Source: Hysterangium stoloniferum
Lineage: Eukaryota > Basidiomycota > Agaricomycetes > Hysterangiales > Hysterangiaceae
Reading direction: 5' to 3'
NCBI GenBank assembly: GCA_015178975.1
Contig: WHVD01000018.1
Coordinates: forward strand, 598,001 to 662,000
Length of the DNA stretch: 64,000 nt
The notes beneath the pieces are model-generated. The model did no database searches. It saw only the letters and a list, made by a program, of their open reading frames with translations, and was not told the DNA's origin. This document shows, piece after piece, positions 2,825 to 62,759 of this stretch (positions are counted from its first letter, which is position 1; every line of letters begins with the position of its first letter). The position numbers and the translations under genes are program-made.

Positions 2825-4090
2825 GTCCTGCTGGGTTTTGATGTAATTGAGACAACCTATAACACTGTGCTATGACAGATGTCTACATTTGCTGAGCTAC
2901 CATTCCCCTACTACGGCTTAAGCTGGAGGCAGTGTAAGGCCGCGGAGTTTACCGAATTCTATGGGAATTTGTGAAAAGGGTCCCGCATCTGGAAGAATTG
3001 TGGATCTTTCGTGGAGGTTGAGTAAGTATGATGCAAGCACACATTGATCCTTCACTGGATTAAAATCGGTTAAGGATCCATAAACACTGAAGCTTTAGAT
3101 CTTTATCCGAGCTAAAGTCGTAGTTAAGTATCCATAGCCCCGAAACCCTTAGATGCTTCGCCGACTTTAACCCGGTTGTGCCGTTAAGGATCCGACAGAT
3201 GTGTGTTTTGCGGGTTTTATGCAACCCAGTTGAGTGGTTGGATCTGGGCCTATTTCCGGTGATGGAATGCCACTGCCATTTGTTACTCTATCTATAAAAC
3301 AGTAAGCACACTTGTAGTTAATTTGATCCTATGGCGAGAAGAAGAAAAAAAGAAAAAGGATATTGGAGGGAAGGAAAGATGCCTGTTGCACTCATTGTAC
3401 ACTATCGGCGGCATCAAGTTCGGGAGATCTAGCGAAATAAAACGAAAAGGACAAAGAAAGAAAAATCTCCAATGGGAAATGTTGGCGTACTGAATCACTG
3501 GACATTGTTCATTCGTTCAATTTTGGGAAAATAAAAGTCGCAGCCCGAATTGCTTTGCGATAGGTGCCAGTAACGATATGTGAGAAAGACCATTTTATTT
3601 CACAAACAGGACTGAATCCTGTGGTAGATTGTTGGCCTACTTATCGACCGAGCTGTAATAAGTGAGGTCATACTAATTATTTTTGCCGCTTGCTTCAAGC
3701 AGGCCAACCTCACAAGAGGAACTCCTTCCTACCCAATCTTCCCAGCCTCTTGTTTTAATACGAGCAATAAGGAATATACGGTCTCGATAATAAGTATGAG
3801 CAAGAACAAGAATAGATCTCTATCTCCGTTCATAAAGTAATTTACCCCCAGGACTTTCTTTAACATTCATATTTGCAGTTTAATGAATTGTTAAAGATAA
3901 AAAGTTGTCAAAGAAAGGGTTAGAAGTGCATCTTACAATATCAGTTGGGCTTGCTACTTGGTTTTTTGAAACTGGCTTCGAGGGTCTTTGTAATCTATTT
4001 TTAGCAGTTTATATTTACCACACCAATGAGCGGAACTTCTTGGCATAGCAAGCCTTCACAGTTATCACACGTCTCGTCTAGGCACTCGCA
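2825..4090. other. Intergenic region
   Basis: No supported gene. The segment 3330-3475 is purine-rich on the plus strand (runs of GAAGAAAAAAAG type). Otherwise it is unremarkable AT-rich sequence between the two paralogues. Confidence 0.5.
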
Positions 4091-29487: not shown

Positions 29488-32400
29488 AACCAAAAATATC
29501 TATTCCTGGGAAAGGTATGCCAAGTTTCCCTTAATGATTTCGTTATTTTACAAATTATATATGTAGTTGTTGGACTGTACCATCATGGACCTTATCCACC
29601 TAGAATATTACCTGGTTATGACCTGGATGGTATGTACAAGTTATACTCAATTATTTAATACAGAATGATGAATTCATTATTGACAGAAAGCCTTTTGATT
29701 ATTTTTTGAATCCAAATTATATCAACCCATCTATATTCAATTTCCAAGCCCAGTCTCACACTGTTCCTGATGATATTGCTTCCAAGCCACCAATGCCCAA
29801 CATTACCATTACTACTCCCTCAGTTCCTTTATCAAAATTACCACCAAAGCCCAACATTACCATTACTGCTCTCTCATCTCCTTTCTCAAAATCAGAGAAA
29901 TTATTACTATCTCCTAACTTCATGTGTGGGAACCATCTCAAGGATTTACAATCATCTATTGGACCAATGGAAAATAGAAAAGTTAAAGACTGGGATGGAT
30001 GGCCCAATGGTGAATGGTCATATCAGTTTACACATTCTGAATATGAAGCCCTCAACAAATTATCTGTTCACTGGGCAACCATAGTGCTAGGTGGGGATAA
30101 ACAACATAATATAAATTCTTTAACTTTAGATGGTGGAAAGCATACAAAGCATAAATGTTTGGGATCATACATTGCAAAAAAATCCTGACTGTGATATTAT
30201 CATTTGACCTCAGACCAGAGATGCTGGTATTCAAAAGCAATTAAAACATAGTTATGACTGTGGATGGAATTTACATCATATGACATGCAATGTATTGTCC
30301 ACACATATTCATTATAAAAATGGGATTATGTATCATAATGGTGGGACACATCTTCACCAATGACCCACTCATAAACTCCATCTTCTTCCCAATGAATGAT
30401 CTCAGCTCCACAAAATATTTCAGGAACATCCAAAAATGGGCTCACTACAATTAGCTGTTGGCATTCCTGGATTTTCTAGTCCAGGTAAATCTGTCACAGA
30501 GATATCCCCAGTTCTATTAAATGTTGATCATGTTCAGTATGAGAAGAAAATTGTTCACAAGAGAAATAAGATTATCAGAGGGACTGCAGAATCAGGATTG
30601 GAACAGTTGGCTGAGTTTGGATCTCATCATCCTGATTTCTTACATTATAGTGAGGTTGGACCAATGTTACGACCGTGTCGCAACCCTATCAGTTCCTGAG
30701 GTTATCGCCACTTATCGACAATTAAAGTTACTATTCAAGTCACCACATTGGAAACCATCGGCCCCCGAAGCTGATGTATGCTTTTGCGATGATCAAACTC
30801 TGTTTACGCCTACGTCAAAATATACTTGTATTATCTGGTTAAGCTTTTGATACGTCCCTTTTATTATGTTGATCCGTTCTATCCTATGTTTCACATATGT
30901 CTATCTATATTTGTAGTCCTCAAACTATTTCCTTTTACCGTAATCCCGCTCTCAGTTATCATCGGCCTCTGAACTAATCATAAACTTCCCGTTCCTAGTC
31001 AAGCTTATTGTTAATACTGTTTTCCACCTTTCCCCCTGTTAGTATTTTCTAGACACCTGTTACTTGTATATGAACCTGCTGTAGTTGTAGTTACTAGGCA
31101 ATCAGAATATTGACTCAGAATACCCTCATATGTCTGTAACAGTCTCATACTAAGGATCCCCTCATCCGCCTTCGCATGCACTCGCCCACTCCCGGCCGCG
31201 ACCTCTTGGCCCGACACTCGACTTGTCCTTCGGTCCCAATCAGTATCTCGCTGAAAGGAACTCTTTAGGATTAGTCTTTGCCCGTCTGAAATTTAAGGGC
31301 ACCCTATGGATATTTGCGAGGGCACAGCACATAAGCTGAAGCCAAGTCCTTCCAATTGGTCCCTGTCGGCCACTGACACTAGTCCCTTTTCAGTTCTTAA
31401 CAACCAACTACAATCCTTGTACTTCAAACTTCTTGGATGGAGCTACAAATAATGCTAGATGTTGTTCAGTATGATGCTGTCCATGGATTTGTCTCTGATG
31501 CTGCACATGGCTATTGGAGAATGAGTGATTGGGTGCTTATAGTATCATCTGTATATTCTTGACATCTTTGTTGTTGGGTTCCAGTTCCCTTCTCAGCAGC
31601 TAATGGCACCACTTCCAATCATTATCAAATACACTTTCTAATGCTGTTTCAAAGTATTGCCTCTCAATGTCAGAAGCAGGGACACCAATTAACTGATGAA
31701 ATGTTTGCATGTGTTGTTGATTTCAGTCAAGCTCAGGCAAATGGCTTTGTGGAGGCTTTTATTCAGTTTTGGTCAACTATGGAAGGCAATACATGAAATA
31801 ATGAGGAATTAACTAAGGCAGAAAACTCACTTTTGAAAGAATGCTATCAGCATTTTCATACTGGCATCACTTGTCTCAAAAGGATTAGTGGTGTGGTACA
31901 ACCCCAGCTACAGGACACTTTTGAATCACAAGCTCTAGGTTTGTTAGAGGCCATCAATGCAGAGGCCTTTAAAGCACATGCTGCAGCACTTATACGTGAC
32001 TTTCCAGGTGTTAAAAACTGGATGGATTGGTGGCAGTAGGACGGACCTTCCCAAATTCTTTTAAGCCATTTAGAACCATGAAAGAAGATCTCTGGGAGCA
32101 ACTACCAGATACTAAAAATGCTGAGGAAGCCATGCATTTTAGACTTTACAGTGGGCTTGGTTGTAATTTAGGACTTATAGAAGGTCTAGAGGGATTATTT
32201 TCATTTGTGAATCTTCTAGAGATGCAGGGCATTGCCAAACAATCAGGAACACCAGTGGCATATGGGACTATGAAACCTTGGACTAAGAATGCTTATCGGT
32301 TAGGACAAACTAAAGTCCACTGAAATCCAACTTCTAAAAGATTTCAAAATGATGGTCATCCACCAGATACTGCTAAGGCACTTATTCTTGGTACTAAAGG

Positions 32401-32643: not shown

Positions 32644-34035
32644 TGTGAAGAGTTGCTGGATTCTGACTACTCAATATAGGAAGAATATTGGCTATTCAGG
32701 CATGATGAGCAAGTATCAACTATCAAGTATGACACTAGAGCTTACTAGACTAACAGTACTAGTAGAAAGACATGATATGCATCACTAGAGCAACTGTGCA
32801 GTTGCTTGTGACAGCTAGTGAAGAGAATAGGGGAGTTGACCATTCTGGTACAACTCACCATGTGAGGAAGGAAAGATAATCAACAAGGTATCAATTATCT
32901 AAGGAAGAGTGAGAGTGGTGCAAATCGATAGTGGTATCAACGAGTGCAGTAATGGGAGTGAAGGACTTGACCTTCATGGTTCGAGTCCTGAAGCTAACGG
33001 TACGCTAAGTAATGCTACTTGCTTAGTAGCTGAGATGTCACCCTGGACACCTCTCGCTGTTCAACATTCTGAGTTGTTACGAGGTGGTGTCTGTTGGGTA
33101 AAAAGTGTCTATCTTCCTTGGTGCTGAGCACACCCACAAGTATTGTTAAGAACTGAAAACTGACTAGTGTCAGTGGCCGACAGGGACTGATCGGAAGGAC
33201 TTGGCTTCAGCTTATGTGCTGCGCCCTCGCAAATATCCGTAGGGTGTCCTTAAATTTCGGACGGGCAAAGACTAATCCTAAAGAGTTCCTTTCGGCGAGA
33301 TACTGATCAGGACCGAAGGACATGTCGAGTGTCGGGCCAAGAGGTCGGGGCCAGGAGTGGGCGAGCGCACGTGAAGGCGGATGAGGGGATCCCTAGTATG
33401 AGACTGTTACAGATGTATGAGGGTATTCTGAGTTGATATTCTGATTGCCTAGTAACTACAACTACAGCGGGTTCATATACAAGTAACAGGCATCTAGAAA
33501 ATACTAACAGGGGGAAAGGCGGAAAACGGTATTAACAATAAGCTTGACTAGGAACAGGAAGTTTATGATTAGTTCAGAGGCCGATGATAACCGAGAGTGG
33601 GATTACGGTAAAAGAAAATAGTTTGAGGACTACAAATATAGATAGACATATGTTAAACATAGGATAGAACAGATCAACATAATAAAAGGGACGTATCAAA
33701 AGTTTAACCAGATAATACAAGTATATTTTGACGTGGGCGTAAACGGAGTTTGATCATCATGAAAGCATACGTCAGCTTCGGGGGCCGATGGTTTCCAATG
33801 TGGTGACTTGAATAGTAACTTGAATCGTCGATAAGTGGCGATAACCTCGGGGACCGATAGGGTTGCGACACGGTCGTAACAAGTATACACAGAGTTTTGA
33901 ACTAAAGAAATAGGGCTATACTCGAAGAGTATACAAAATAGAAACATAGAGACAAAATATAGAAAATAGTATTGAGTAATATGCATATTATTCGATAGTC
34001 CAACCATAATATGTGCATACCCTTCATAGTGCCCC
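32644..34035 (-). repeat. LTR of retrotransposon C (left copy, interrupted)
   Basis: Homologous to 39862-40502 once the solo LTR at 33144-33881 is removed. The copies differ chiefly by TG/CA changes at former CpG positions. Confidence 0.9.
33144..33881 (-). mobile_element. Solo LTR, 738 bp (family L1), TSD AGTAT
   Basis: On the plus strand TGTTAAGAAC to CGGTCGTAACA, with perfect duplications AGTAT at 33139-33143 and 33882-33886. The empty site is seen in the sister LTR at about 40350 (CCACAAGTATACAC). Confidence 0.95.
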
Positions 34036-40502: not shown

Positions 40503-41320
40503 AAATGTGATCAGTTATGTGAACAACTCCTTCAAAAGAAGTTTATTAAAGCAATTAATGAGCCTGATGTTCTCATGGGTTGGTTTGAGAGGTCTATTCA
40601 AGAGTTTCATAGCCATTCTTGTGATAATGCAACACTTCCATTTTTTGAAGCCCAAATAATCCAACTCCACTCTTGTAAAACCCAAGAAGAGGCCCGTTAT
40701 CAACTCATCAGCCTGCCAAAGACACAAACAATTCACTATCTTCAACTTAAACACTACCAGATGGCAAATGGCAATTTGCAATCATGGTTATACTCACAGG
40801 TTCTTCCAAGCTCAGATCATACAGATGCTTGTTGGAAATCATTTCAAGGTGAACAGATATGCAGAAGTTTACCCTCTATAATGCAAATCTGAATACACAT
40901 TCCTATCATGCTTGTTTTGTCCCTGGATTATGAGAGCTTGACAAAGACATGGTGTCTGCCTAAAAAGCTCAAGGCTCCATAATAGCAATGCTATCTATGA
41001 GCATGATGGTTTACAACATTCAGGATCCTCAGTAAAAATACAAAAAGGTACCAGATCACAATATCTTGGAGAGAAGATTCAGACAGATTCAGGCATATAT
41101 CGTGGAGAAGACTTCAGCTACTAAGCGCCGCGCTCGCACGGGATCAATAATGAGCCATTCCATCGATGCAGTTTCTACCCGGTTGGAAGCCCGCGATTGA
41201 AAAGATCACATTCTAATATCAGTACGTGTCTTCTAACGCAAGCGCCGATGGAGACTCCAATACCGTGATTGCGGGGTTCCAACCAAAATTTGATTGACCA
41301 CGTTTGAAAAGCTGGTCTCC
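40503..41320 (+). pseudogene. MULE-like gene, 3' part
   Basis: Continuation of the gene at 29488-32643 after retrotransposon C: CDQLCEQLLQKKFIKAINEP, then DVLMGWFERSIQEF and QSWLYSQVLPSSDH, open to 40892. Downstream to about 41200 degraded sequence still reads TKRRARTGSIMSHSIDAVST, which may be its C-terminus. The region after the USP-like Cys box would hold the remaining protease core; no His box is evident. Confidence 0.5.
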
Positions 41321-41689
41321 TAGTACAGTGTCCCAACTGTATCAGGTCTATTTTTTCTTTTGAATTTTGAATTTGGGTTTGACATTAGCATTTCAAGAGT
41401 GCCAAGGAGATGTGTCAGCCCTAACTGCCCGTTTTGGGTAAGCTTTCACTCACATTGACAATTATTACTCCTCATCGTCACCCACTATCATTGTCGCTCT
41501 TGCTGCCACTGTCCAATATTGCCGTCATGGCCCCTTACTATCATCTCCACCACTGCTCACTATTATTACTGCTGCCATCCATACCATTGTGGCCCCTTAC
41601 ACTGTCCAATATTGCCATCATGGCCTCTTACTATCATCTCCACCGGTGCTCACTATCATAACTGCCGCTGCTCAATATCACTGGTGATG

Positions 41690-42901
41690 CCAGATACCGA
41701 ATCTATGGAATCTCAGCCTAGCATGCACTACAATTGCAATCCTATGGGATTCAATCAATACAGGCACTGCCGTGAGTTATCTTCCACTGTCTTTGATATA
41801 ATCACTGTTAATTTTTCTTTCTTTCTTTCAAATAACTACTCATAGCATCCTCTGGGGATGAAAACATAAAGCAATGTATTATTGAATACCACCGATGTGG
41901 CATTACCAACCGTAAAGAACTCAGCAAGCTATTTCTTGCAGAGCATGGGATCCAGATAAGGTACATCTATTTATTTCATGCTCTATATTTTTGATCCTCA
42001 GTTTTTCCTTTCATTAGTGAAGCAACTATTGCTCACCATCGTACCCAGTTTGGCTTACAAGGCAGTGGGGCTACAACAAAGAGTCTTCCAAATACCACAA
42101 AGTGGCAGCTTGTTCTTGACCAAATGGCTCAGGATCCTACAAGTTAACAAGGACCACGGGTGGTAAAGGAAGCAATTGCTGCGAGGACTGGGATTAACTT
42201 GACAAGGTAAGTACATCTATTGTGATTCACTTCATGTTTTTGATTGATAACTGTTCTTAGGAGTTTTGTTACATCAACTATGCGACTCCAAGACCCAGCC
42301 GGCTTTGTGATTAGACAACCTGGCATGAGAAAAATAAACCATTCACTGCTCATCCTGTTAGGCCCTCATCAAGAATGGAGTGGGGATGGTCATAATAAAC
42401 TAGCAGTGATTGGCTTCCCACTTTGGGCAATACGAGACATATGGTCAGGGGCATGGCATGGTTGGGGATTTGGGTGCTCCCAAACAATCGCTTGAAGATA
42501 GCCATCGCATATTTATATCTAAGCCTGATTGAGAAGATGGGCGGTAAGTCTTTTACCTTTTGACCTTCCCAGTGCTGAGTGAATACAGGTATGCCTGTTC
42601 AGACAACAACAGACTGTGGGAGTGAGACTGGCAGAGTCTTCAGTATCACAAATGCTTTAAGGTACTGTAATATCTTATCTTTATCTTATCCTTTTCTACT
42701 GATGTTTGATCATTTCTAGGGAGATTTTTTCACCTGAGTTGTGTGTAGATGGCCTCCTGCACATTGTTTCTTGAAATAAGTACACAATACAACTATTGAG
42801 CATGGATGGCTACAACTTCGTTTCAAGTGGGGCAACAATGTGAATGTGCATTGGGAAGCTGGTGAAGTTATTTATAATCCAATGGATGTACACCACCAGT
42901 A
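41690..42901 (+). pseudogene. rve/DDE integrase-like transposase gene of element D
   Basis: Spliced model with short GT-AG introns (for example 41957-42017, 42208-42260, 42545-42590). Blocks: IIEYHRCGITNRKELSKLF; HHRTQFGLQGSGATTKSLPN; then the catalytic core with EWSGDGHNKL (first Asp), WLGIWVLPNNRLKIAIAYLY, MPVQTTTDCGSETGRVFSIT (second Asp), and NTTIEHGWLQLRFKWGNNVN (Glu). I know this arrangement from uncharacterised integrase-core proteins abundant in Agaricomycetes. The copy is damaged: a TAA near 42145, a small indel after WSG near 42450 and a TGA after HCFLK near 42775. It would cut and join the element's ends; inactive here. Confidence 0.65.
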
Positions 42902-42914
42902 AGTCATTTCCACT

Positions 42915-45758
42915 TCATAATCTTACTCTTAGTACAAACTTGCCAACAGAATCAATCACAGTGTGATGGGGAAAAGCATCAACACACATCCCAAGTCTAT
43001 CTGTGTTATTTCCAGCCTGTTCGTTCCCAGAGAATTTGGCCTCTTGTATTGGCTTGGGTAGCAATGGTGCTGCCAGGAATGCATTCCATCGTATACTAGG
43101 CTCAACTGGGCTAGAACTTTTAGATGAGTCTGTAGCGTCTTTTACTTCATCTACCAATTTCCCAATGAAAGCATCCTTTGTATTCCACCTAAGCACTATA
43201 ATTTAAACCATTAAATATTAACTTTAATTTATTATTGTTGAGAATTTAGCTTACTGGGTATATTTTTGACACCACTAGATCTAATCCGTTCATTGAATGA
43301 CTCAGCAAAGTATTCACCCCAGGTTAAAAGTATGAGTTCTGATCCCAACTTGTTGAAATTCTCCTTGTTGAACTGGCAACAAACTTCCTTCCACTCAAAG
43401 AGTGCAAAATCCTTTTCTTGGATTTTTCCCTGTGAATCAAAGAAACTGTTATATATCACACCACATGATATGATTTAAGCATACCTCAAAAGCATATTTA
43501 TAAAGCCCAAAGCCCAAATATCCACCCCTCCGTCCACCACATCCTATGTGCTCTCACCAATTCTTCTGTACAAGAACTGTTTCTATTTCGTCACTTTCTG
43601 TGATCTCAATGTCACAAGTACATTGATTGACTGATATTTTAATCCTTTGGAATTTATATGCCATGTATACCACATTTACAGTTGCATAGCAGCTAACATA
43701 TGCACTGGTATAATGTTTGTTAAGCCATGTATTATCCATTGCACGTGTTTCTTTAGATTAATTTATAAGCATAATAAAATACACAAATATATAAAAATTC
43801 AAAACTGACCCTTTTCGGAAGAAGGATGCTTACGCTTTGCTCCAAGGCTTTGTTAAGAACTGAAAACTGACTAATGTCGGTGGCCAACAGGGACCAATCG
43901 GAAGGACTTGGCTTCAGCTTATGTGCTGCGCCCTCGCAAATATCTGTAGGGTGTCCTTAGATTTTAGATGGGCGAAGACTAATCCTAAAGAGTTCCTTTC
44001 GGCGAGATACCAATCAGGACCGAAGGACAAGTCGAGTGTTGGGCCAAGGGGTCGGGGCTGGGAGTGGGTGAGCGCATGTGAAGGCGGATGGGGGGATTCT
44101 TAGTATGAGACTGTTACGGACGTATGAGGGTATTCTAAGTCAATATTCTGATTGCCTAGTAACTACAACTACAGCGGGTTCATATACAAGTAACTGGTGT
44201 CTAGAGAATACTAATGGGGAGAAGGGCGGAAAATGGTATTAACAATAAGCTTGACTAGGAATGGGAAGTTTATGATTAGTTCGGAGGCCAATGATAACCG
44301 AGAGCGGAATTACGATAAAAGGAAATATTTCAAGGACTACAAATATAGATAGACATATGTGAAACATAGGATTGAATGGATCAACATAATAAAAGGGACA
44401 TATCAAAAGTTTAACCAGACAATACGAGTTATTTTGACGTGGACGTAAATGGAGTTTGATCATCGCAAAAACATACATCAGCTTCAGGGGCCGATGGTTT
44501 CTGAAGTGGTGACTTGAAAACGTTGATAAGTGGCGATAACCTCAGAACTGATAGGGTTGCGACACGGTCATAACAGGCTTCTAATACCATATGCTCTGGT
44601 TATTTTCTTATTATCATCCATTCTACCACTAGCATTTAGCTCTTCGTCACTGATCTGTGATTTACATATAAATATAACTGTAATTGCAATTCAATCACAA
44701 TGACTCACTATGGGCACATCTTCATGCAACCATAATTGAAGTGTGAGATCATTTTTCTTGATATATTTAACTGAAAGGAAGTCTTGATTGATTAGATCTG
44801 TCTGCCATTCACCAATACCTTTCCCCCCAAGCTTTATCACATCAACATCCACAAAGTTATGGTCCTGTGAATTTGTTCTATTTACAACAACAAAAATAAC
44901 TCTTTCCCTACACAATAAATTAGTGGAATTTTTTCATGTATAAATAATATCCTTACCGGTCCCATATCAATTTAATATCATGGTTACTGTGGTGATCATA
45001 ATAACTCTTCCCATTTGACAGGATTTTGTCAATAACTTCATTAGCATCATCCTGTACATCAAAAGGCTCTTTCTGCATTGGTAGTGAAATCTGTGGTCAC
45101 CAGACAATTATTTAATCTTAATATGAAAAATACAATCAACTATACAAACCTGGACAGGTTTATTTTTGCCCAGGATGATCTGAGCAAGTGAATGTCTAAT
45201 ATTAATTATTTCTCCTTTGTTTTGCTTTTTCAAAGCCTGAGTCTTCTTGTGGACTTCATATCCTTTGAGAAGGCTATCATTTAAGGGTAGTGGCTTATGC
45301 AAACAATACTTTGATGCAGTCTCCTCAAAGTCCAATGTATGCTGAGTCAGGAATTCTGCAAGATCACCTATATCTATCAGTAAATGACAAATTCAACATC
45401 ATTGTATAATAAAGTATGAGAACATACCTTCAGATAAATGGGGCCCTAAAATTCATAAGTTCATTGAACAACACAAACAATTCTCAAAAGAAACACACTT
45501 TTGTCTGCTTTATCTACACAAAAACCACAAATGGGTTCAGCCAAAAATGTATAAATTACACCACATCCATCACATTGTGGCTTTGCCTGTTTTTTTTATC
45601 CATCATTTATTAATCTCATAAATGATTAGTACTGAACTCACTAGTATATTTTTTTTCTCGGGTTCAGAAGGGTTTTGATCAAGTTTGCAACATCGACCAC
45701 ACAAGACTTTCTCTTCGAGATTGGGAAACTTTTTAGAACAGCCTGGACAATGAGGCAT
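42915..45758 (-). pseudogene. α-kinase-like gene with two zinc-binding CxxC modules, inside element D
   Basis: Start ATG at 45758. Exon 1 (45758-45642) reads MPHCPGCSKKFPNLEEKVLC then GRCCKL. Exon 2 (from 45596) has KPQCDGCGVIYTFLAEPICG then FCVDK. These are two CxxC...CxxC modules. Later exons: EFLTQHTLDFEETASKYC; ISLPMQKEPFDVQDDANEVI; ERVIFVVVNR; ISDEELNASGR. Then, after the solo LTR, KRKHPSSEKG, YKFQRIKISV, LYKYAFE, KIQEKDFALFEWKEVCCQF and EYFAESFNERIRSSGVKNIP. Last comes FSGNEQAGNNTDRLG with DAFPHHTVIDSVGKFVL. The order and these blocks match basidiomycete α-kinase-like proteins as I know them. The C-terminal end of the kinase domain is missing. One TGA near 43557. Identification is from memory of the family. 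Confidence 0.55.
43851..44575 (-). mobile_element. Solo LTR, 725 bp (family L1), TSD GGCTT
   Basis: On the plus strand TGTTAAGAAC to GTCATAACA with perfect duplications GGCTT at 43846-43850 and 44576-44580. It splits an exon of the α-kinase-like gene (AYGIRS joined to LGAKRKH). Confidence 0.95.
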
Positions 45759-46216
45759 AGCAAGCAGATTAACAGATAGGCTGTCAATATTTTAGAGGAA
45801 GTCCTACATATTATATATACATGTATTTACTATCGCATAATTTAATTTTTAGATTCCGAAATTTGTAGAAAGTACTGGTAAATCCCCTGATTTTATTTAA
45901 AACTGCCAAATCACAGTTATTGCAGTGAAGTGTTTCATGTATTTAGTGGCAGTGAGTACAGTGGAACATATGGATCTGCACCAGGGACTTGACCAGTGTA
46001 CAGAGGTTCAAAATTGGTTTTTTCTGGCCTTGTTATACTACTAAAATTAAATATATTAATATTTTTATGTTATAGAACTCAACTGGCTGAGAATGGCTGG
46101 TTTACCCAAAACAGCAAGCATTGGGCTGATGTATCCCCTTGGCACTAGCGCTAATGTCAAACCCCAAATTCAAACTTCAAAAGAAAAATAGACCTGATAC
46201 AGTTGGGACACCATAC

Positions 46217-47130
46217 CTAGTTAGGAAGAGCCAAATAATTGTTGACACAGCACATTGATATGAGAAGTATGATACAGGACATCAGTGCTTCAGCGCTTAT
46301 GCATTTTGATGAAACCCAAAATGAAACCAATTCTTCTGTCTGGCTTACAGAACTTAAACTAAGCACTGGGCTTGTATTCCTTATGTACATCAAGGCTTCT
46401 CATGAGCCGTTAATAATTCACGGTTGTTCTTCAACATGGTCCACAACAATGATGCTCCTGCTCCCAATGAGTCTTCTCTGCCCTCCACTGTTGATGATAT
46501 CACTGCAGACTCTCCTCAGTGAGCGCCATTCACACTGCCACTTTTCACTCAGTACTGAAGGTCCACATCTGCGTCCCATAGTATTCGCATATTGGTTTTA
46601 GGAAAGGTATCAAATCCCTTGTGTTTTTAACTAGGAGTCTAGTATATTAATCAATGCCCAATTTATTTCAGATGAGATGTGGAAAGTTGTCATTGATTAA
46701 CAAAGTCTTTGGTGTCGACCAAACATTGAGCACTCACTTTGCTCTAGGTCCTCTTTGTGCTGATCGATCCTCTGAGTAGGAAGTCTCCCATGATGGCCCC
46801 AGACAAGCTAACATCCATACTGGTTTTCGTCATACATAGCAGTAACACCCGATTTATCCTAAATTACAAGAAATCAAAACAAAATACAATAAATCAAATT
46901 AAAATACGAGAAGTCAAATAAAACACAATATATCAAAATAAAATATAATAGATCAAAAAAAAAAAATCAAAAAAAAAAAAAATCAAATACAACAAATAAA
47001 TCAAAATACAATATAATAAATTAAAACAAAATACAGTAAAACAAAATAAAATCAATGCTCTATCAATTTTTCTATCAATGTGCATACATTCTGAATCAAT
47101 TTTCAATCAAATGTTATCAATGCTCAAACA
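46217..47130. other. Flank of element D and A-rich low-complexity tract
   Basis: 46239-46601 is open but unrecognised. 46858-47050 is an A-rich simple-sequence tract built from AAATCAAAATA-like units with poly-A runs near 46955. From 47050 the motif ATCAATGCTC recurs. No gene supported. Confidence 0.5.
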
Positions 47131-62035: not shown

Positions 62036-62759
62036 TGTTAAGAACTGGAAACTGACTAATGTCGGTGGCCGACGGGGACCGATCGGAAGGACTTGGCTTC
62101 AGCTTATGTGCTGCGCCCTCGCAAATATCCGTAGGTTGTCCTTAAATTTCAGACAGGCGAAGACTTAAATCCTAAGAAGAACCTTTCGGCGAGATACCGA
62201 TCGGAACCGAAGGACAAGTCAAATGTCGGGCCAAGGGATCGGGGCTGAGAGTGGGCGAGCGCACGCGAAGGCGGAAGGGGGATTCTTCTAGTATGAGACT
62301 GCTGCAGACGTATGGGGGTATTCTGAGTCGATATTCTGATTGCCTAGTAACTACAATTACAGCGGGTTCATATACAAGTAACAGGCGTCTGGAAAATACT
62401 AATGGGGAGAAGGGCGGAACACGGTATTAACAATAAGCTTGACTAGGAACGGGAAGTTTATGATTAGTTCGGAGGCCGATGATAACCGAGAGCGGGATTA
62501 CGATAAAAGGAAATGGTTCAAGGACTACAAATATAGATAGACATATGCGAAACATAAGATTGAACGGATCAACATAATAAAGGGGACGTATCAAAGTTTG
62601 ACCAGACAATACGAGTTATTTTGACGTGGGCGTAAATGGAGTTTGATCTTCGCGAAACATTCGTCAGCTTCGGTGCCAATGGTTTCCGAGAGGATGACTT
62701 GAAACATTGACAAGTGGCAATAACCTCGGGGCCGATAGGGTTGCGACATGGTCGTAACA
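62036..62759 (-). mobile_element. LTR, 724 bp (family L1), no target duplication
   Basis: On the plus strand TGTTAAGAAC to GGTCGTAACA. Flanks GGCAA and CCAGC do not match, so it is not a simple solo LTR. It marks a rearrangement that removed the gag side of element G. Confidence 0.9.

Follow-up and report, generated by a model that had tools for sequence, protein, structure and literature searches.

A probable IS3EU-like DNA transposon family of Hysterangium stoloniferum in which an alpha-kinase-like gene lies tail to tail with the transposase gene

Alpha-kinases are in general signalling enzymes, and a gene for one inside a mobile element raises the question of whether the kinase is there by accident, for the good of the fungus or for the good of the element itself. 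The question is posed by a stretch of 64,000 nucleotides from Hysterangium stoloniferum (contig WHVD01000018.1, positions 598,001 to 662,000; ‘the window’ is this whole stretch), in which a sequence-only reading had described an element bounded by inverted repeats and carrying an integrase-like and an alpha-kinase-like gene. The answer proposed here is that the feature is, very probably, a decayed IS3EU-like DNA transposon in whose family the gene for a DDE transposase converges with one for an alpha-kinase that bears N-terminal zinc-ribbon-like modules, and that the kinase probably raises the success of the element. The ends, the duplications, the two-gene layout, the many copies and the imprint of purifying selection on both genes can be followed in this one genome, where the same layout recurs in a second, deeply diverged lineage, one end of which has been seen.

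The element occupies positions 41324-46215 (4892 bp); the bounds first proposed, 41325-46214, captured it with each end one base short. It is a DNA transposon with terminal inverted repeats (TIRs), the left arm (41324..41440, plus strand) beginning TACAGTGTCCCAACTGTATCAGG and the right arm (46101..46215, minus strand) beginning TATGGTGTCCCAACTGTATCAGG. The arms align over ~115 bp with few gaps and 83% identity, in agreement with the more than 100 bp originally suggested. They start with TACAG (left) and TATGG (right), and CCTAG flanks both, the left copy of this target-site duplication (41319..41323) being identical to the right one (46216..46220) in 5/5 bases. In a search of the genome (111 Mb in 554 contigs; C and L below mark contig and locus labels), the left TIR has at least 30 matches, its own and right arms counted, the best elsewhere with an expectation value (E) of 1.9e-95, such that it is not a chance repeat. 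Between the left TIR and the first gene lies an imperfect direct repeat of 69 nt and 90% identity (41507..41668, plus strand), which many copies match.

Two genes lie tail to tail between the arms. The remnant of the transposase gene (41687..42933, plus strand; start codon inferred) has a DDE/rve core with the blocks DGHNKL, TDCGSE and IEHGW, contains internal stops and lacks its C-terminus. The remnant of the alpha-kinase gene (42935..45758, minus strand) opens, in translation, with two pairs of CxxC modules of zinc-ribbon-like appearance and continues through a middle region into the kinase N-lobe, the C-lobe being missing. The two convergent split genes of the sequence-only reading, with all of the motifs it named, including the closing block FSGNEQAGNNTDRLG, are present in the translations. 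That block is, however, not a natural gene end. Relative to seven other copies (L009, L010, L012, L014, L015, L016 and L018), 912-917 bp are absent at ~42934 (junction 42933..42935), taking with them the 3' ends of both genes. The missing piece, as read in L015 and L018, encodes the C-lobe of the kinase together with the C-terminus of the transposase; in other words, the kinase-like frame stops at FSGNEQ...TVIDS because it has reached the edge of a deletion.

Stops interrupt both genes of the window copy, which moreover contains 725 bp (43851..44575) that those seven copies lack. This insertion into the kinase gene is read as a later, nested solo long terminal repeat (LTR), since it has TG...CA ends, a GGCTT duplication on both sides and 88-89% identity to the window's stretches at 30665-31402, 33144-33881 and 62036-62759. 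The LTR family is thus repeated within the window, near 62 kb next to Ty3-like coding sequence, and matches to it also occur inside several of the transposon loci. Deletion and insertion leave the window copy a dead, non-functional element. Neither of its two proteins, as exon strings, matched a Pfam model, and the domain assignments accordingly rest on sister copies.

These copies fall into a family A (window, L009, L010, L012, L014, L015, L016, L018 and L023) and a family B (L031, L036-L040, L043 and L044). A family-A copy gives PF24764 rva_4 for the transposase (E 2.4e-7) and PF02816 Alpha_kinase for the gene opposite (E 7.3e-15), the family-A protein strings containing a few borrowed residues; a family-B copy gives E 3.8e-6 and 1.3e-17, respectively. 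The PF02816 scores in two sister copies, 56 and 65 bits, stand against a curated cut-off of 21.3. The integrase-like gene is hence identified as that of a DDE transposase, and the alpha-kinase assignment, which the exons of the window copy did not return, is carried by its relatives. Against the PDB, the kinase C-lobe found 11 distinct solved sequences, including 4kuj (best, E 1.5e-9), ALPK1, 1ia9 (TRPM7), MHCK A and eEF2K, and a profile of three C-lobe sequences again gave 11 solved-structure matches. The D-x-Q-G, D-P-Q and H-x-C-x3-C motifs are retained in the alignments shown; FADLQG, FDPQ and THQCNDIC, all absent from the window copy, align residue by residue to 4kuj, ALPK1, 1ia9 and MHCK A. 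In alpha-kinases the D-x-Q motif is catalytic, the D is metal-binding and H-x-C-x3-C binds zinc. On these matches and motifs, the gene opposite the transposase is taken to be a real alpha-kinase with a divergent N-lobe. The transposase found no match in the PDB. A whole-genome profile search with PF24764 also returned none, probably because introns split the gene, and no positive control matched in that search. As a separate feature, the transposase gene of L039 contains, at ~3650-4010 of the locus, an in-frame 24-bp tandem repeat encoding QDRFNNHL in many copies.

Twenty stretches were fetched around left-TIR matches, and more around protein matches, with copy ends placed by eye from a conserved GTGTCC block; in L009, which has two right-end-like motifs, the outer one was used, its duplication fitting. 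Nine copies have both ends (window, L009, L010, L012, L014, L015, L018, L036 and L039). Each of the nine contains both genes, with the kinase inside the TIRs, so that neither a copy with these ends and a transposase only, nor a kinase gene running beyond the TIRs, which the sequence-only reading had named as contrary outcomes, was found among them. All nine also start with TA and end with TA. The left end is TACGG in six of the nine (TACAG, TATAG and TACCG in the rest) and the right end CCRTA in seven. The target duplication is an exact 5 bp in six copies, agrees in 4/5 bases in L012, is an exact 6 bp in L018 and agrees in 5/6 bases in L015; as a control, only one of 72 non-self end pairings agrees over 5 bases. 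A Tc1/mariner assignment was considered and dropped: a TA duplication would suit the TA ends, but 5-bp duplications outside the TA explain more. At C180:62500-78500, L009 and L010 lie nearly end to end, the second inserted in CCTCC, which overlaps the CCCTC duplication of the first.

The pairing extends well beyond the two-ended copies. Queried with the kinase C-lobe, the genome yielded 45 matches in 18 loci, of which 17 are convergent with a transposase, and the 18th (L017, on C111) has a TIR and the kinase, no transposase having been found there. Between the conserved parts of transposase and kinase gene lie 116-332 bp, except in the window copy, where these parts overlap by 20. Pfam alpha-kinase matches in the genome number ten, nine of them in these 18 linked loci and one, on C146, of another type. 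That search was six-frame and unspliced and missed several kinase loci found by other means, hence further alpha-kinases may exist; at its sensitivity, no clearly free-standing alpha-kinase was found in this genome. Carriage by transposons, proposed earlier as an explanation for alpha-kinase numbers, does explain those alpha-kinase genes that were found in this single genome, which look like transposon parts rather than ordinary host genes. For the wider premise of a great expansion of alpha-kinases in Agaricomycetes, no confirmation was found: in the available portions of the papers cited here and below, high expansion is stated for rusts (PMC4469406) and enrichment for wheat rusts (PMC5295586), and a survey of 30 fungi has Alpha_kinase domains far rarer than other kinase domains (PMC2838846).

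The C146 kinase belongs to a second element lineage, with relatives on C53, C37, C24 and C40. In the four other loci, matches to the 2900 bases around the C146 kinase begin at L042 279-286, the preceding flank being unmatched, and all five loci share the left boundary TATACCAAAGTCTTAG with 0 or 1 mismatch. The element at C146 (C146:642285-646300; L042 286-2900 and L045 1-1401) has a second transposase gene (rva_4 E 1.1e-6) that converges with the kinase gene (Alpha_kinase E 4.1e-15) from the other strand. Transposase DNA is present at four of the five loci, C146 included, and not at C24 among the matches scored; carriage thus holds for this kinase type as far as a common boundary in 5/5 loci and transposase DNA in 4/5. 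The genes were read at C146 and the left end alone was reached. A pattern search for the right end did not find it (55 matches against 119 for the reversed control); the search with the end pattern gave the five known left ends and perhaps two more with one mismatch (C223, C496). Pairwise BLAST between the two lineages gives 25% identity for the transposases (285 aligned columns, E 3e-20) and 24% for the kinases (184 columns, E 5e-5).

Whether the kinase is maintained can be addressed through the ratio of non-synonymous to synonymous substitution rates (dN/dS), calculated within tblastn alignments. For L015 and L039, representing families A and B, and at an identity threshold of zero, the kinase value is 0.21 (0.15-0.28) over 528 codons and the transposase value 0.11 (0.06-0.17); three other A-B pairs give 0.21-0.27 and 0.10-0.18, respectively. 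Identity thresholds lower both, and at 0.4 the kinase spans 0.13-0.32 and the transposase 0.07-0.19 over all A-B pairs of at least 60 codons. Along the kinase, in two pairs at a threshold of 0.2, constraint is strongest in the CxxC part and in the C-lobe (0.12-0.13), followed by the middle region (0.21-0.22) and the N-lobe (0.27-0.29). Between subfamilies of A the kinase gives 0.33-0.35 and the transposase 0.28. Within families the values range from ~0.2 to 1.8, as expected from decay after insertion. The between-family ratios (kinase ~0.2, transposase ~0.1) indicate that the kinase has been maintained, and codon comparison thus shows long-term purifying selection on both genes. The two genes also appear to have travelled together, their distances correlating over 15 copies (r 0.88, which none of 2000 permutations reached).

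Several observations weigh against a functional kinase that is a regular partner of an IS3EU-type transposase. The lysine of strand beta-3 binds ATP in alpha-kinases, and at its expected, ungapped position most copies have Glu (FALFEWKEV), with Lys in L010 and L012, such that catalytic activity is not assured; a Lys two residues further on is usual among the copies. The distance correlation is due mainly to the A/B split, and the finer branches of the two gene trees differ. Six loci (L011, L013, L021, L029, L030 and L032) have a transposase and no detectable kinase, none of them with a pair of ends around it; in L021 the transposase aligns over 393/393 residues beside one TIR, with no kinase in the 5 kb beyond. 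Conversely, L017, L025, L026 and L028 have a kinase without a transposase, L025 stopping at a contig end, and there are further kinase N-terminal fragments at C112 (twice), C53 and C6 and further transposase fragments, for example at C539, C124:457058 and C121:15556-22164. As to the ends, TAYGG..CCRTA is found on both sides in only four of the nine copies, and the duplications are mostly 5 bp, compared with 6 bp for IS3EU (PMC10045372).

Another set of eight loci matches, among the matches scored, only residues 1-93 of the transposase query (2-93 in one case), in frames of 97-122 residues without stops (C68:76915, C512:418033, C410:23919, C509:380873, C222:36889, C517:124996, C533:1211107 and C1:3140817). 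They may represent a derivative with an internal deletion, or an exon put to new use.

If the kinase were a chance passenger, a host alpha-kinase captured and carried without use as in Pack-type elements, the within-family dN/dS values of up to 1.8 and the stops or deletions in most copies would come naturally, though they are equally the mark of decay after insertion. The between-family ratio of 0.21 (0.15-0.28), falling to 0.12 in the C-lobe at a threshold of 0.2 and matched by similar constraint on the transposase, makes this account very improbable, as do the kinases in 9/9 two-ended copies and the repetition of the layout in a second lineage. Purifying selection is silent on who benefits, and alpha-kinases are otherwise signalling enzymes; it might then be that the kinase is kept for a benefit to the fungus and that the transposon merely spreads it. 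Such a host-serving cargo is improbable, given that 10/10 Pfam alpha-kinase matches lie in element-linked loci (in a six-frame search insensitive to split genes) and that the kinase copies decay together with their elements.

A different objection concerns the age of the pairing, since each lineage could have gained a different alpha-kinase and reached the same convergent layout separately. The kinases are indeed only 24% identical (E 5e-5), and the second type was read at a single locus. Set against this, the transposases have diverged just as far (25%, E 3e-20), in keeping with a single old pairing, and the TET-carrying IS3EU families of rusts and Tuber share the opposite orientation (PMC12730594). 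Two independent captures are, on balance, unlikely. The reading preferred here remains that of an element-encoded kinase kept for the success of the element.

On that reading, the transposase would bind the TIRs, cut at the TA ends and insert the element at a staggered 5-6-bp target, and the kinase, made by the element, would work to the element's own advantage, its most likely phosphorylation target being a host factor of silencing or repair, or else the transposase itself. As to its role, we tentatively favour a part in controlling transposition or the host's silencing. In this regard, C/T differences among six family-A copies (15 pairs of L009, L010, L012, L014, L015 and L018) affect 0.546 of CpG sites and 0.073 of other C sites, a pattern of decay that fits cytosine methylation of the elements; such methylation would offer a target to a helper that counters silencing.

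If selection maintains a transposon's own kinase, phosphorylation would join the few known routes by which eukaryotic DNA transposons manage their hosts. It is also conceivable, at somewhat less than an even chance, that, apart from a few old host genes, the alpha-kinases of fungi form a gene family of transposons, an ancient and co-evolving second gene in IS3EU-type elements that predates both the split of the two lineages and the addition of TET in rusts. Were this so, family ‘expansions’ and some rust alpha-kinase effector candidates would be encoded by transposons, and IS3EU-type elements would use phosphorylation in moving or in escaping silencing. One alpha-kinase is among 46 proteins under diversifying selection (PMC4150398), and one among the highly variable genes of poplar rust (PMC4164029). 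As a caution, reported fungal alpha-kinase ‘expansions’ may count transposon genes. The comparison of two lineages makes the proposal testable across fungi: the same kinase clade should accompany the same transposase clade.

Two results stand apart from the element. Searches of viral contigs with one kinase exon and one transposase exon gave 10 and 8 pattern matches, respectively, and no relatives in either case. The genome holds five 5.8S copies with scores from 155 to 128 bits, including L041 (C516:302114-302268), whose 5.8S/ITS region resembles that of an Agaricomycete, and these unequal scores suggest that the ribosomal DNA units have diverged or decayed.

Among known systems, the closest appear to be the TET-carrying IS3EU families (Kojima 2025, PMC12730594), all of which have a TET/JBP gene between a transposase and an alpha-kinase in opposite orientations; they comprise rust families with 6-bp duplications and TAYGG..CCRTA ends, and one family in Tuber indicum. 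In the open literature, at the level of titles and abstract openings, no other account of a transposase–alpha-kinase pairing was found, Repbase reports and most subscription papers lying outside that coverage. The present element is, on the available part of that paper, a TET-less relative of the kind noted in print in 2025, to which evidence of kinase maintenance and a second deep lineage with the same layout are here added. It shares with those families (PMC12730594) the opposite orientation of transposase and alpha-kinase, short duplications, TIRs longer than 30 bp and, in four of nine copies, both terminal motifs; unlike them, it has duplications mostly of 5 bp rather than the 6 bp of rusts, and no room for a TET/JBP gene, given that only 116-332 bp separate the conserved parts. 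A genome search with PF12851 gave no match and, as no positive control matched, is uninformative.

The assignment as IS3EU-like draws on published descriptions of ends and layout and on the general model PF24764 rva_4, and is to be taken as provisional. With the IS3EU/GingerRoot superfamily, whose complete families always have TA..TA termini and usually 6-bp duplications (PMC10045372), the element would share a DDE transposase, TA..TA ends and duplications of about this length (5-6 bp here); it differs in carrying a kinase, none being mentioned in the available text of that paper. Kyakuja, Dileera and Zisupton elements with TET/JBP genes (PMC12730594) are likewise fungal DNA transposons with a resident enzyme gene that possibly serves the element, the transposase superfamily being another and the enzyme a dioxygenase, not a kinase. 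The solved alpha-kinases (4kuj, ALPK1, TRPM7, MHCK A and eEF2K) have in common with the element's protein a C-lobe with the catalytic, metal and zinc motifs, from which the latter departs in its extra N-terminal CxxC modules, its divergent N-lobe with an uncertain beta-3 lysine and its residence in a transposon.

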